Shown here one piece after another: positions 3,187-41,230 of a DNA stretch of 41,230 bases (within the stretch, counting starts at the first letter, position 1; each line of letters starts with the position of its first letter). The stretch is from a virus. Under the pieces are notes generated by a model. That model worked only from the letters and a program-made list of their open reading frames with translations, was not told where the DNA came from and made no database searches. The DNA lies in the IMG/VR virus record IMGVR_UViG_3300009786_000003, positions 1-41,230 of that record; one strand, given 5' to 3'. Both the position numbers and the translations under genes were made by a program.

Positions 3187-4059
3187 CTATGCCCCCATTA
3201 GAGTTTCAAATGATGTTGCCCGCCGCGCCCGTGCGCGTGTCCTTTTGTTCCGCTCCGCTTTCGCCACGGCGTCCGACACGGTGGCCGGTGAGGTGACACC
3301 CGTGTCCTCTTTCGGCGGCGTCGATGGCGGTCCTTCTTCGGCGGCGCTGACCGGTAAAGTATCGCTGCCGCCGTCACCATCGAAACCATCGGGACCAGTA
3401 GCGACACCCGGTCTGCTTGCTACGTCCTCATTATAGGCGTCCTGAATGGGTGTTCCCGGTTCAGAGCCAATCACAGAGGGAAGATCACGAACATCCACAG
3501 TCGGCCTACTCGCCTCTCCCGGTTTTGCGGTACTTAAATCAGACGTGGAATATGTAGGGTCCGCGAGGCTTATTGTCTGAACCGCTGTTCGTTCACTAAC
3601 CGGCTGGTCTGCCGGCTTCTCGGTGTCAGGCAAAACGTCGCCCACCTCGATCACGTTCTCATCGCCTCTAAACCAACCGAGAAGATCACCAGCAGCACCA
3701 AGGCCGAAAGATACCGGGTTGGATGCTTTAAGCGCCGTCGCCACGCCCCCCAATGCCGAGCCAATAAGACCAGGGGCCGTCTTGCCGACGCTTCTCACCC
3801 CACTGCCGGCGCGAGACAACATCGCATCAACTTCTCGCGAGGTCGCCACCTTCGGACCTGACCCAGTCGCCGGTTTGTCCTTGCCAGAACTCCCAGTTAC
3901 ATCGCCACCAGAACCGCCGCCACCAGAACCACCGCCACCAGAACCACCGATGAACGCCTCAAGTGCTTCAGGATTAGTGACCTGACCCAACGCTATCGCA
4001 CTACTTTTGCCTTTAGTCTTGCCGTTGCCGCCACCACTCGCCGCCGCGTCAGCAGTCAT
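3187..4059 (-). CDS. Gly/Ala-rich hypothetical virion-region protein
   Basis: A 290-aa protein with no recognised family. Residues about 38-52 form a natural glycine-serine linker (GGSGGGGSGGGGSGG). The centre (about 78-130) is a hydrophobic Gly/Ala segment, followed by an acidic disordered stretch and a basic C-terminus rich in Arg/Lys. It is the second gene after the terL terminator and lies directly before the portal gene. Overlap with the 72-aa gene on one side and 3 bases from the portal on the other show one transcription unit. It could be a structural or head-tail accessory protein; that is inference from location. Confidence 0.75.
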   Translation of the reverse strand: MTADAAASGGGNGKTKGKSSAIALGQVTNPEALEAFIGGSGGGGSGGGGSGGDVTGSSGKDKPATGSGPKVATSREVDAMLSRAGSGVRSVGKTAPGLIGSALGGVATALKASNPVSFGLGAAGDLLGWFRGDENVIEVGDVLPDTEKPADQPVSERTAVQTISLADPTYSTSDLSTAKPGEASRPTVDVRDLPSVIGSEPGTPIQDAYNEDVASRPGVATGPDGFDGDGGSDTLPVSAAEEGPPSTPPKEDTGVTSPATVSDAVAKAERNKRTRARARRATSFETLMGA

Positions 4060-7013: not shown

Positions 7014-7043
7014 GGCACAAGCAACCAACCAGGGAGATTTATC

Positions 7044-7310
7044 ATGGCGACCACGTTAAACACTGAAAACCGCGAAGACGGCCTTCACCTGACAGACAAA
7101 GATGACGTACTGCAGTACGTCATTATCTACGATGGACGCGATCAATGGTTCGTGGTGACCGCCAACGTATATTATAGGCGCCGGCTTGGGAATAAGGCCG
7201 GCCGTGCGTTCCCATTGATCGGCGAAAACACATGGCGTTCGCTTGAGGCTGCAGAGTTCTATGCGTTGGCAATGTACGCGGACCAAGTCGCCATCGCTAA
7301 ATACCAATAG
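7044..7310 (+). CDS. Hypothetical early protein (88 aa)
   Basis: The first gene of the early plus-strand block. I chose the ATG preceded by AACCAACCAGGGAGA because it supplies the Shine-Dalgarno; an upstream in-frame start would run through the promoter. The product is a small soluble protein with aromatic-rich segments (QYVIIYDGRDQWFVVTANVYY, given here only in part as QWFVVTANVYY, about residues 35-45), followed by an Ala-rich C-terminal helix. No family is recognised. First early genes of phages often modify the host, but nothing in the sequence shows that here. Confidence 0.75.
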   Translation: MATTLNTENREDGLHLTDKDDVLQYVIIYDGRDQWFVVTANVYYRRRLGNKAGRAFPLIGENTWRSLEAAEFYALAMYADQVAIAKYQ

Positions 7311-7320
7311 TGACAACCAG

Positions 7321-7359
7321 GAAGCCATACCTGGCGAACAGGATGGTTTCTTGATTTTC
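7321..7359 (+). terminator. Terminator-like hairpin between early genes
   Basis: GAAGCCAT-a-CCTG, loop GCGAA, CAGG-ATGGTTTC forms a 12-bp stem with one bulged A and one G-U pair. It is followed by the T-rich TTGATTTTC. It begins about ten bases after the previous stop codon and may attenuate expression of downstream early genes or protect the 3' end of the first. Confidence 0.6.
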
Positions 7360-7379
7360 ACCAACCAAGGGGATGAAGC

Positions 7380-7700
7380 ATGATTATCGGGACAGTGCGA
7401 CCAGAGGAAGCAAGAGTTTATGATGACAAAGAGGGATTCCATCAATTCCACGCCGACGAAACTCAAGAAACCCATGGCTCGTTTGAAGTGTTTTGGCATG
7501 GCGGCGGGCATTTAATCGAACAAGACGTTATAGAAGACGATGACATGGCGCTTGATGAATGGCGAGACGCCGAAGCGCCGGGATGGTATTGGCGGGCGTG
7601 CTTTCCGGGCTGCCTTCCCGAAGGTGGGCCTAGTGGGCCGTTCGCCAAATCCTCACAAGCCCATAAAGACGCCGACGAATGGGCACCGGATTACGACTAA
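7380..7700 (+). CDS. Hypothetical protein with PGWYW-CFPGCLP motif (106 aa)
   Basis: An acidic 106-aa protein. Its C-terminal half carries APGWYWRACFPGCLPEG then GPSGPF and ends DADEWAPDYD. This PGWYW...CFPGCLP...GPF pattern recurs in small proteins of many phages and plasmids that have no assigned function. Its leader is CACCAACCAAGGGGATGAAGC, with AGGGGA as Shine-Dalgarno. Two cysteines four residues apart near residues 74-78 might bind metal; this is a guess. It is accessory, with no structural neighbours. Confidence 0.75.
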   Translation: MIIGTVRPEEARVYDDKEGFHQFHADETQETHGSFEVFWHGGGHLIEQDVIEDDDMALDEWRDAEAPGWYWRACFPGCLPEGGPSGPFAKSSQAHKDADEWAPDYD

Positions 7701-7704
7701 ACGC

Positions 7705-7738
7705 AACCAACCAACCAACCAACCAACCAACCAACCAA
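7705..7738 (+). repeat. (AACC)8 tetranucleotide tract in a gene leader
   Basis: Eight perfect AACC units plus AA lie between a stop codon and the AAGGGAGA Shine-Dalgarno of the next gene. The A/C-only composition keeps the leader unstructured. The tract is prone to slippage, so its length may vary within a phage population. Shorter AACC runs precede most other early genes. Confidence 0.95.
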
Positions 7739-9795: not shown

Positions 9796-9949
9796 AACCC
9801 TTCGCGCCAGTCCTGGGGCATCCTACACGCCGCCATCGGTCCATCGGCTACGGATCGATGAAACCAAAACGACGTGGCGCCGATTTCAAAACAGCGTGGC
9901 GCCAAATCCAAGACGTATCGCAAACCAACTAGCAAAAGGATACAGATCG

Positions 9950-10117
9950 ATGAAAATCAAGGTCAAGATAGAGTTCACAATTACAGTGGACGCCGAAGCC
10001 TGGATGCTGAACTACGGCACAGAACCGCAAGACGTTCGAGCCGATATAAAAAGCTACGCCGAAGACATAGTCCGTCATCAGATCGACTACGTCACGGGAG
10101 AAGGTTCATGCGAATGA
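9950..10117 (+). CDS. Small phage protein, MKIKVxxxVTVDxEAW type (55 aa)
   Basis: A 55-aa protein starting MKIKVKIEFTITVDAEAWML, continuing with YGTEPQDVRADIKSYAEDIV. Short proteins opening with a beta strand, then VDxEAWxxxYG and an acidic helix, are frequent in phage early regions; no function is known to me. AAAAGGA lies about 10 bases before the ATG. Its stop is overlapped by the following HTH gene, so the two are probably co-translated and possibly functionally linked. Confidence 0.75.
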   Translation: MKIKVKIEFTITVDAEAWMLNYGTEPQDVRADIKSYAEDIVRHQIDYVTGEGSCE

Positions 10118-10290
10118 AAACCATGGCGCCCGAAACATTCAAGGCCCACCGTCTTGCCATGGGCCTCACACAATCAGCCATGGCGAAGTTGCTTGGCCTA
10201 TCCATGCGCCAAGTGATCCGATACGAAATGGGTCACTCTGTAATCCCAAATCCAGTCGGGATATTATTAGAGTTTTTAGACCTCAATTAA
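10108..10290 (+). CDS. XRE/Cro-type HTH regulator (60 aa)
   Basis: A compact helix-turn-helix protein. FKAHRLAMGLTQSAMAKLLG (residues about 10-29) followed by LSMRQVIRYEMG is a classical Cro/CI-type HTH with the LTQ-x-A helix 2 and a recognition helix around SMRQVIRYE. At 60 aa it has only the DNA-binding domain. The first ATG is best placed 7 bases after GGGAG; the ATG two codons later overlaps the previous stop. It sits beside the iteron region and near two copies of a TGACA-N3-TGTCA dyad, so those are natural candidate operators. Confidence 0.9.
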   Translation: MRMKTMAPETFKAHRLAMGLTQSAMAKLLGLSMRQVIRYEMGHSVIPNPVGILLEFLDLN

Positions 10291-10305
10291 CGCCGGTAAC
10301 GCTCA

Positions 10306-10331
10306 CCCCCCCTCTATATAGAGAGGGGGGG
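10306..10331. other. GC-rich hairpin at edge of putative origin
   Basis: CCCCCCCTCT, loop ATATAG, AGAGGGGGGG forms a 10-bp perfect stem of unusual GC strength. No T-run follows on either strand. It begins 16 bases after the HTH gene's stop and directly adjoins the first iteron. Confidence 0.85.
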
Positions 10332-10332
10332 A

Positions 10333-10561
10333 TGATGCGCTTTGCCGCAAGCATGAAGCGCATCACTGGATGATGCGCCTTGTACCCCCAGTGTTTCTGC
10401 CATTTTCAAGACGTTTTCCAGGCAAGCGCATCACAAGCGCATCACCCATGATGCGCATCATGGGCGCATCATCCTTGATGCGCTTACTTAAACCGGATAA
10501 ACCGTTGATATTGCTAGAGATTTTCGAGATAAAGATTTAGCGTCATTTTACGATGATGCGC
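10333..10561. other. Iteron array, candidate origin of replication
   Basis: The 8-mer TGATGCGC occurs ten times in about 230 bases: forward at 10333, 10371, 10449, 10476 and 10554, and as GCGCATCA at 10358, 10426, 10437, 10453 and 10464. At 10445-10464 two copies merge into a perfect 20-bp palindrome, CCCATGATGCGCATCATGGG. A/T-rich stretches flank it (before 10290 and from about 10500 to 10550). No gene is present. It lies next to the primase-polymerase gene. Iterons, an AT-rich zone and a nearby replication gene are the usual layout of a theta-type origin. Confidence 0.7.
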
Positions 10562-10576
10562 CTGACAATGTGTCAG
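10562..10576. promoter_or_regulatory. Operator-like dyad next to the iterons
   Basis: CTGACA-atg-TGTCAG is a perfect inverted repeat with the same TGACA-N3-TGTCA core as the dyad in the early promoter region at 6981. It overlaps the stop codon of the primase-polymerase gene. It may be a second binding site for one regulator, perhaps the HTH protein encoded 300 bases away. Confidence 0.5.
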
Positions 10577-12468
10577 AAATCTATCCTGTTATATGACAAT
10601 ATGGCGCCATCGTCGGCGACATCCCCTAACCTCACCAAGCGAGAAAGAGTCATCCTGAACGATTTCAATCCGACATCATACGCCTCGCAGAATAATGCGC
10701 TTAGTTCATCACGCGAGGTCGCGCCATGCACCACTAAGTGTCCCACAATAAATTCCGATTGGGATGGCAAGACCGACAATGTCGATGGTACGACCACTGG
10801 CACGGACCGATCCGACGACCCAACGCCGCCTTGCATTTCAACCTGAAATTGAAAAGTCTTGCCGTCCTCGCCGTCCTTCATCTTCTCTACATGGAGCGTG
10901 ACGCTGTTATCCTTGCGCCTGACCATTCCAACCGCATCGACGTTCGCTACCTTGGCGTAGGCGCCACGGATACCGCGCTTGGCGTCCTTGCCCACATGGT
11001 CAATCAGGACAACCAGCCCGCCCCATCGATCCGCGATGCGGTAGGCGTTCCCGATGGCTCTCGCCATGTCCTGCGTGGAGTTATCATCGGCCCCAATCGT
11101 AGCCTTGGAAAAGGTGTCGATTACGACCACACCCGGCGCCAGATCGGCGCCATCGACAAGCGCGAAGAACTCCTCAATGGATTCGTCACGCATCAAATCA
11201 ACGGTGTTTTCCATTCCTATGAATTTGCCAGCCACGTCGTCGCGATCCATCTGGTTGAGGGATAGCCACGCTTGACATCGCTCACCAAACCCGTTCTGGC
11301 CCTCGTTCAGCGTAAAAAGCACCTTCTTTTCAATGGTTTCGAGGTCACCGACACGCTTGCCGGTGACCACTGCCATGGCTAACGACAGCGCCGTGAATGT
11401 CTTCATATGCCGGGTCTCGCCGCCCAGGAACGCGACACCTTTCTCAGGCCATATGTGGCGTACTATCTGGCGCGGCGGCGGTCTGTCCATCATGTCCCCG
11501 ATGGATAAAAGCGGACCCAGCGACCTACTCGGTTGTTGTGGCTGGTGCGCCACTAGACTGCCGTGCATCATTTGCCTCGCGACGTGATCCGGTAAGGCGA
11601 GGTCACCACCGAACTGCGCCTCACCCGATGCGCTGCCGACTGCCGATTCGCGATACTTCCTGGCGTTGGCTACCTTGACCCGGAGTTCGTCCCCGTCCCA
11701 CGGCGGGTCACATCGATCATTCCAATGCGACAGCATGAGGTCTACGCACCCCTGGGCCGATACGCCAAAATCCATGACCCGGCAAGCGACGGCGAAGGTA
11801 GTCGCATCGCCGCCATCCCCCTCAGTCGCCGCCGGTGCGTCTCCTAGGTATGCAGTGGCGCGTTCTATGGCGGCTGGTGTGTCTAGATCGATATAGTCCG
11901 CCTCTTGCGCCGGTGCGGTTGGCTTCGCCGCCGCTCTCTTCAGTTTCTCACCGAACCATTGTGGCAGTTCGGCCAACTCCGTCAGCTTGGCCTTGTAAGG
12001 CCCGCCGACGAACGATCCTGGCCCGACAACGTACCCGGCCTTGGCGATGCCCGAACGGATGTCCAGCCCATCGCCCAGCTTGCTACTGCTATTGCGGTAC
12101 TCATCGTCAGTCTGGAAAAACAAGTGCAAGCCGCCGGTGGGCGTGTGCGTTGTCATCGTGGCCGGCAGCTTGTCGGTGGTTTGCAAGGCGACAAGGCTCT
12201 CCATCCCTCTCTTGCCCTCTTTGACATCCACGTCGAGGACCACCATCTTGCGGTCTCCGAACTTGCCGCCGTGGATACCGATGTTGTACTTGCCGGTGGC
12301 GAACCACTCTCTTATCTGTCTGGTGTCACGGGTTGCCCGGTTCGGCCATTCGGTGACAGCCGCGATCTTGGTATCGTATCTAACAGGGAATATCCAGAAT
12401 CCATGGGCGGCAAGCGCCAGTGCGCGACGGAGTAATAAAGTGTTGTCAACTGCTGGCAGTTGTGGCAT
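10573..12468 (-). CDS. Primase-polymerase/helicase replication protein
   Basis: A 631-aa protein. The N-terminal domain is a bifunctional primase-polymerase: FPVRYDTK near residue 27, GKYNIGIHGG at 59-68, the catalytic LDVDV with D79 and D81, then HTPTGGLHLFF with H108/H115. A helical linker (about 195-275) follows. The C-terminal half is a RecA-like AAA_25 helicase domain with Walker A GGETRHMKT (349-357; the usual Gly before Lys is Met) and Walker B VVVIDT (447-452). It should prime and unwind at the origin. TAGGAGA stands 8 bases upstream of the chosen ATG; an upstream start would consume the promoter. It is the only minus-strand gene inside the early block and is adjacent to the iterons. 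Confidence 0.92.
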   Translation of the reverse strand: MPQLPAVDNTLLLRRALALAAHGFWIFPVRYDTKIAAVTEWPNRATRDTRQIREWFATGKYNIGIHGGKFGDRKMVVLDVDVKEGKRGMESLVALQTTDKLPATMTTHTPTGGLHLFFQTDDEYRNSSSKLGDGLDIRSGIAKAGYVVGPGSFVGGPYKAKLTELAELPQWFGEKLKRAAAKPTAPAQEADYIDLDTPAAIERATAYLGDAPAATEGDGGDATTFAVACRVMDFGVSAQGCVDLMLSHWNDRCDPPWDGDELRVKVANARKYRESAVGSASGEAQFGGDLALPDHVARQMMHGSLVAHQPQQPSRSLGPLLSIGDMMDRPPPRQIVRHIWPEKGVAFLGGETRHMKTFTALSLAMAVVTGKRVGDLETIEKKVLFTLNEGQNGFGERCQAWLSLNQMDRDDVAGKFIGMENTVDLMRDESIEEFFALVDGADLAPGVVVIDTFSKATIGADDNSTQDMARAIGNAYRIADRWGGLVVLIDHVGKDAKRGIRGAYAKVANVDAVGMVRRKDNSVTLHVEKMKDGEDGKTFQFQVEMQGGVGSSDRSVPVVVPSTLSVLPSQSEFIVGHLVVHGATSRDELSALFCEAYDVGLKSFRMTLSRLVRLGDVADDGAILSYNRIDF

Positions 12469-41107: not shown

Positions 41108-41230
41108 AACACGGGTTATCGGCGGTTACCTTTTCAACATCACAGCATGTGATGCGCTCGGTGAAGTAGTGACCTTATTGCGAATGTGATCAAGACGCAA
41201 CAACTTTTTACAGATTAAACTTACTGCGCC
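41108..41230. repeat. Terminal direct repeat, right copy (circular overlap)
   Basis: Exact copy of the first 123 bases. Removing it gives a closed circle of 41,107 bases in which the late operon runs uninterrupted from scaffold to capsid. Confidence 0.95.

Follow-up and report, generated by a model that had tools for sequence, protein, structure and literature searches.

The gap between two converging genes of this phage is most probably its cis-acting replication-initiation site, either an origin or an initiator-loading array, and the comparison of sequences suggests that this site is read by the product of one of the two genes, a fusion of a Prim-Pol domain with a RepA-type helicase. The window, as we call the whole 41,230-nucleotide stretch of viral DNA that was analysed, carries in this gap ten copies of the octamer TGATGCGC within 229 bp, five on each strand. 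The gap adjoins the 3' end of the helicase gene, and arrays of short words, mostly different ones, are found at the same place in 23 of 50 non-redundant relatives of the enzyme. Moreover, in close pairs of one group of relatives the repeat changes together with the C-terminal domain of the helicase.

The octamer array and its surroundings

The ten octamers in about 230 bp that the initial annotation had described were counted again and stand, and the comparison with a shuffled control that it had proposed points the same way, as the expectation for the whole window is 2.4 copies and the maximum among 100 shuffles was 6. TGATGCGC is also the most clustered 8-mer of the whole window. The sites extend to the consensus RTGATGCGCNT, with T as the second base after the octamer in nine of the ten copies, and within 10426-10483 the distance from one site centre to the next is 11-12 bp, or 4 bp in the palindrome. 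The 20-bp palindrome, the 10-bp hairpin with seven consecutive G-C pairs and the A/T-rich sequence that had been pointed out are all present, the last with an A+T content of about 70% across 10500-10559 (Table 1). The rest of the window has four unique sites (43, 4481, 23003 and 33545), which is near chance; the copy near 43-50, previously taken for the only further one, is thus one of four. A match at 41150 is site 43 repeated, because positions 1-123 and 41108-41230 form a 123-bp direct terminal repeat. Contig L155 spans the junction of this repeat, and the record is therefore circular or terminally redundant. A switch in GC skew had been proposed as a further check, and no switch attributable to an origin was seen in the window; skew follows the gene strand and was therefore rejected as origin evidence. 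As a separate observation, AACCAACC-type words occur at about 7020-7720, seven of them within 250 bp, ahead of the rightward early genes.

Table 1 Features in and around the octamer array (positions in the window)
Feature	Position	Strand	Remarks
Small HTH_3 protein	9874..10290	+	Gene converges on the array; alternative candidate for reading the repeats
Hairpin CCCCCCCTCT-loop-AGAGGGGGGG	10306..10331	.	Distal edge of the array; 10-bp stem, seven G-C pairs in a row
TGATGCGC array	10333..10561	.	10333+, 10358-, 10371+, 10426-, 10437-, 10449+, 10453-, 10464-, 10476+, 10554+; proposed initiator-binding sites
Tail-to-tail pair GCGCATCA-N5-TGATGCGC	10358..10378	.	From sequence
Tail-to-tail pair GCGCATCA-N4-TGATGCGC	10437..10456	.	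From sequence
Perfect 20-bp palindrome CCCATGATGCGCATCATGGG	10445..10464	.	Two overlapping sites
Tail-to-tail pair GCGCATCA-N4-TGATGCGC	10464..10483	.	From sequence
A+T-rich segment	10484..10553	.	Main cluster to gene-proximal copy; proposed unwinding element
Prim-Pol / AAA_25 (RSF1010 RepA-type) helicase fusion, 701 aa	10573..12678	-	Proposed initiator
C-terminal domain, about aa 632-701	10576..10785	-	Proposed repeat-reading domain, judged from relatives

The 701-aa protein encoded beside the array matches PF09250 (E=8e-30) and PF13481 (E=3e-23), its Prim-Pol part matches ORF904 of pRN1 in a search of PDB sequences (E = 3e-4), and the best fold match for the predicted structure of its helicase domain is RSF1010 RepA (1nlf, 1g8y). 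The C-terminal 70 residues are predicted to form a helix pair, with low confidence in two predictions, one of them with their own alignment; they gave no Pfam family at cut-off and no convincing match to a solved structure. The remaining replication module comprises a family A polymerase, a DUF2800 exonuclease, an Enc34-type SSB, a SNF2 helicase and a RuvC-like resolvase, and neither a phage RNA polymerase nor a gp4-type match was found among the 20 window proteins scanned. The genes for portal, tail and head resemble those of T7-like podoviruses, so that the particle looks T7-like and the replication module does not. Nucleotide relatives of the window were looked for in the phage collection and none was found.

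Arrays at the 3' ends of related helicase genes

A distant relative (L225) has a different octamer, TGTCCGCG, in eight to nine copies that span the 3' end of its Prim-Pol gene, and we therefore surveyed the relatives of the helicase. The set consisted of 50 relatives with a mutual identity below 60%, in which the commonest 7-mer between 150 bp upstream and 400 bp downstream of the stop codon was compared with 200 shuffles; this stretch includes coding sequence, and some of the arrays lie partly within it. A significant short-repeat array was present at the 3' end in 23 of the 50 relatives, at the 5' end in 0 of 46 and in the middle of the gene in 0 of 50, and the 3' arrays were mostly built of different words. 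When the four loci that had prompted the survey (L001, which is the window's own copy, L225, L074 and L237) were set aside, 19 of 46 loci had a significant 3' array. All 15 both-strand arrays in the 536 kb of surveyed loci stood at the 3' end. In four of five close pairs, the noncoding array stretch was more conserved than the 4-fold sites of the adjacent gene, and in the fifth pair it was not significantly more conserved.

About half of the non-redundant relatives, including the full-length Prim-Pol/RepA proteins of L240, L244 and L247, had no detectable 3' array, and in the L005-type group the array lies several kb from the helicase gene. There, both-strand arrays of TGCAGCAT or TGCAGCAC were observed several kb upstream of that gene (L005-L008, L012, L015, L017, L019, L024, L027, L029, L035, L036 and L040); the array of L012, at 3525-3779, has a terminase gene nearby. 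The initial annotation had made the origin depend on the repeats being kept in close relatives with the primase-polymerase, and this expectation holds for the place of the array but not for its word, and several such relatives are without an array. It had also called a site of this kind unusual in a T7-type virion. The virion is indeed T7-like, but since 23 of the 50 relatives of the enzyme have such arrays, an array is not odd for a phage with a Prim-Pol/RepA enzyme.

Significant 3' arrays were also found in cultured phages, namely the Roseobacter phages CRP-811 and CRP-823 (11x CTACAAA) and CRP-831 (10x GTATAAA), Idiomarinaceae phage 1N2-2 (8x) and Rhizobium phage RHph_N65 (12x), as well as in the uncultured ct3Oc712, while phi673 has a weak one of four copies. 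No significant 3' array was found in GB2A, RDJL3, Minerva, UncleHowie, Mahdia, Agente005, IME279, sortregn, Shagrat, 13VV501A, ctLpZ231 and ctyzp037. RHph_N65 and GB2A were already known before this test of named phages.

In two DNA-only scans of viral contigs, the sole other cluster of at least ten TGATGCGC copies was that of L153, where 12 copies stand 3' of another AAA_25 helicase gene; despite the common octamer, no C-terminal similarity between this protein and that of the window was detectable. The L153 array (2165-2352) belongs to an otherwise unrelated phage and has a DNA methylase gene on its far side. The identical octamer in unrelated contigs was considered as proof of homology and rejected, as the matches are mostly of three copies and many are inside open reading frames. 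Palindromes of TGATGCGCATCA were noticed at two places of one 129.5-kb contig (L147, 8695-8752; L149, 2780-2833).

The structural relatives of the window, with portal proteins 69-74% identical, have other primase-helicases at the equivalent part of the genome, which are DUF5906 proteins in L160, L170, L174 and L178 and Toprim/AAA_25 proteins in L175 and L186. These genes have 3' arrays of their own made of other words, TAGAGGA in L174, CACCCTA in L175 and L186, and more weakly AGGTACAT in L178; the 3' arrays of L160 and L170 were not significant. GTCGATCAGGATG-like repeats near gene starts in L174, L175 and L186 are perhaps a common leader or translation motif.

Co-variation of the repeat with the C-terminal domain

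With the CRP-831 protein as query, a scan returned 76 relatives, which we refer to as the CRP-type family, and a word present at least five times accompanied 47 of the 55 distinct C-termini; the words include CTACAAA, GTATAAA, TCCTAAA, TAGGACA, ATGTGAA and CGTACCA. Pairs with the same and with different repeats were compared at equal helicase identity, the pairs not being independent of each other. Where the helicases were at least 95% identical, C-terminal identity was 0.84-0.99 in pairs with the same repeat (n = 27) and 0.69-0.86 in pairs with different repeats (n = 16). L382 and L385 have three differences in the primase, two in the helicase and as many as 14 in the C-terminal domain; their repeats, in nine and ten copies, are TGTTACG and TGGTACG, respectively, which are one base apart. 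CRP-821 and CRP-823 are 69% identical in the C-terminal domain and have GTATAAA and CTACAAA, respectively; CRP-831 and CRP-823 differ likewise, with a sharp boundary where the C-terminal domain starts. Across the whole family, the partial correlation with the repeat after removal of helicase identity was weak for the C-terminal domain (0.14) and no stronger than that of the helicase (0.19), and the case is therefore limited to close pairs. Because the repeat changes with the C-terminal domain in these pairs, the C-terminal domain of the helicase probably reads the repeat in the CRP-type family.

For the window protein, the argument is made from position and family, because its C-terminal domain gave no significant single-sequence match to the CRP-type family; by this analogy, its own C-terminal domain would be the most likely reader of TGATGCGC. 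A profile match between the two C-terminal alignments was discarded as partly circular, since they have three sequences in common.

Proposed mechanism and rival explanations

We suggest that the Prim-Pol/RepA-type helicase recognises the TGATGCGC octamers, most likely via its C-terminal domain, and that several initiator subunits would assemble on the array of mixed orientation. The A+T-rich segment at about 10484-10553 may then open, after which a RepA-like ring would load and the Prim-Pol domain would prime, presumably in this order, and the phage's own family A polymerase could extend the primers.

A different reader was considered in the initial annotation, which had named the neighbouring HTH protein as an alternative binder. 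The octamers would then be operators to which this HTH_3 protein binds as a repressor or regulator of copy number, and the array would act on transcription or act on replication indirectly. The tail-to-tail dyads would suit a dimeric HTH protein, the gene adjoins the array, and a repressor is known from the replication operon of pRN1 (PMC4234260). However, both neighbouring genes have their 3' ends at the array, where a promoter-like site was looked for and none was found, and in the CRP-type family a changed repeat goes with a changed C-terminal domain of the helicase itself. The HTH protein is also a poor candidate because its homologues stand beside the other enzyme in L160, L170 and L174, that is, next to primase-helicases with other words (L174) or with no significant array (L160 and L170). 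We thus regard it as the less likely reader and the operator explanation as improbable.

Two further explanations appear even more remote. The convergent genes, the strength of the hairpin and the single-strand fold of the region (z = -6.6) would fit a bidirectional terminator or structured RNA between the genes, of which the repeats would be by-products as stem-forming sequence; but the hairpin has no T run on either side and no terminator was called there, for which reason a canonical terminator was rejected and such a role for this hairpin is unlikely. This explanation is also at odds with one octamer repeated ten times in mixed orientation, and with related arrays that lie between co-directional genes (CRP phages) or over coding sequence (L225), so that we consider it very unlikely. 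We would give equally little credit to a partition (parS-like), packaging or host-protein decoy array in place of an origin. Repeat arrays are also used in partitioning, and in phages Miko and Rachaly a parS array follows immediately after repA (PMC7157519); yet no ParA/ParB-type gene was found among the 20 window proteins scanned, in phages unrelated to each other arrays are tied to the end of the helicase gene, and a change in the C-terminal domain of the initiator is accompanied by a change of repeat.

Comparison with known systems

The initial annotation had described an iteron-type origin next to the primase-polymerase gene. The comparative evidence gives good support to an origin served by this enzyme, but the term iteron-type fits less well, as the layout is nearer to P4 crr and the SaPI ori, and with five sites on each strand the array does not have the single-orientation direct repeats of classical plasmid iterons. 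On both strands immediately behind the alpha gene, at its 3' end, P4 crr carries ten 8-bp sites that are annotated as type I (TGTTCACC-like), a layout like that of the window, and a putative terminator hairpin lies near crr as a hairpin adjoins the window array. However, the P4 octamer differs from TGATGCGC, P4 alpha has a Toprim primase and a D5/DUF5906-type helicase domain and, unlike the window protein, no Prim-Pol or RepA fold, and in P4 a further region, ori, contains repeats of types 1 and 2, whereas no second array was seen in the window. The winged helix domain of alpha reportedly binds the P4 repeats (PMC4234260). In SaPI and SCCmec (Cch2), a short-iteron origin directly downstream of the initiator helicase gene is read by the C-terminal domain (PMC7581432), repeats likewise lie downstream of the initiator gene in PICI (PMC6092414), where two iteron sets flank an A+T-rich stretch, and the origin of SGI1, which has iterons, is also located downstream of rep (PMC7433901). 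The helicases of SaPI, PICI and SCCmec belong to other families (DUF927, D5-like), and these elements are islands and satellites, whereas the window is from a free phage. Short repeats directly downstream of an initiator gene and an adjacent primase/helicase gene are found in the window as in P4/SaPI-type systems, whereas a D5/SF3, DUF5906 or DUF927 helicase is not; because of the AAA_25 / RSF1010 RepA fold in its place, the window would resemble these systems in its working but is not classed as a member.

In pRN1, the origin lies 3' of ORF904 and is described as a large iteron-free stem-loop, and a C-terminal winged helix has been reported (PMC4234260). Like the window, pRN1 and Bordetella phage BIP-1 have a Prim-Pol domain, and their origin lies directly 3' of the gene, where that of the window is proposed, but they have an SF3 helicase and an iteron-less stem-loop origin in place of an octamer array. 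The best fold match of the window helicase, RepA, is from RSF1010 (IncQ), which uses three proteins where the window has one polypeptide. RepB' and RepC of RSF1010 supply primase and DNA-reading functions, comparable to the window fusion, and the RSF1010 origin has longer direct-repeat iterons.

Researchers have suggested that the C-terminal winged helices of primase-helicase fusions in mobile elements recognise origins (PMC5862659). As far as open-licence papers show, neither the Prim-Pol/RepA type nor the co-variation seems to have been described before, and a survey of this breadth also seems to be new. It is an evenly balanced question whether one may go further and regard the Prim-Pol/RepA fusions as one-polypeptide versions of RSF1010, in which the C-terminal domain of the phage protein and the 3' array form a swappable specificity cassette with a readable domain-octamer code. 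Recombination or mutation would then alter domain and array together, with primase and helicase left nearly identical. Candidate recognition sites are now indicated for a large set of primase-helicase fusions, and a simple rule for phage origins would be to inspect the sequence immediately beyond the primase-helicase gene, at its 3' end. Cultured phages with arrays can be named, and near-identical pairs (CRP-821/CRP-823 and L382/L385) differ in repeat and C-terminal domain together. Should this reading be borne out, the enzymes and their arrays would make up a family of orthogonal initiator-origin pairs.

Hairpins beside the arrays

Hairpins of the C-first type, similar to the one at the distal edge of the window array, numbered 12 in the 3' regions of the 50 surveyed loci, where their density in other places would predict 1.4, and their loop is often TTTA or TATA. 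They were present in 9 of the 23 loci with an array and in 3 of the 27 without (p = 0.04), an association that was tallied by hand and serves as no more than a lead. A CCCTTTAGGG-like hairpin is present in 17 of 47 CRP-type arrays, and between CRP-823 and CRP-831 the C-first hairpin is unchanged while the surrounding repeats differ. The recurrent C-first hairpin CCCTTTAGGG was also seen in or beside arrays in CRP-type 3' regions and others (for example L321 and L322), where it is kept as the repeats change.
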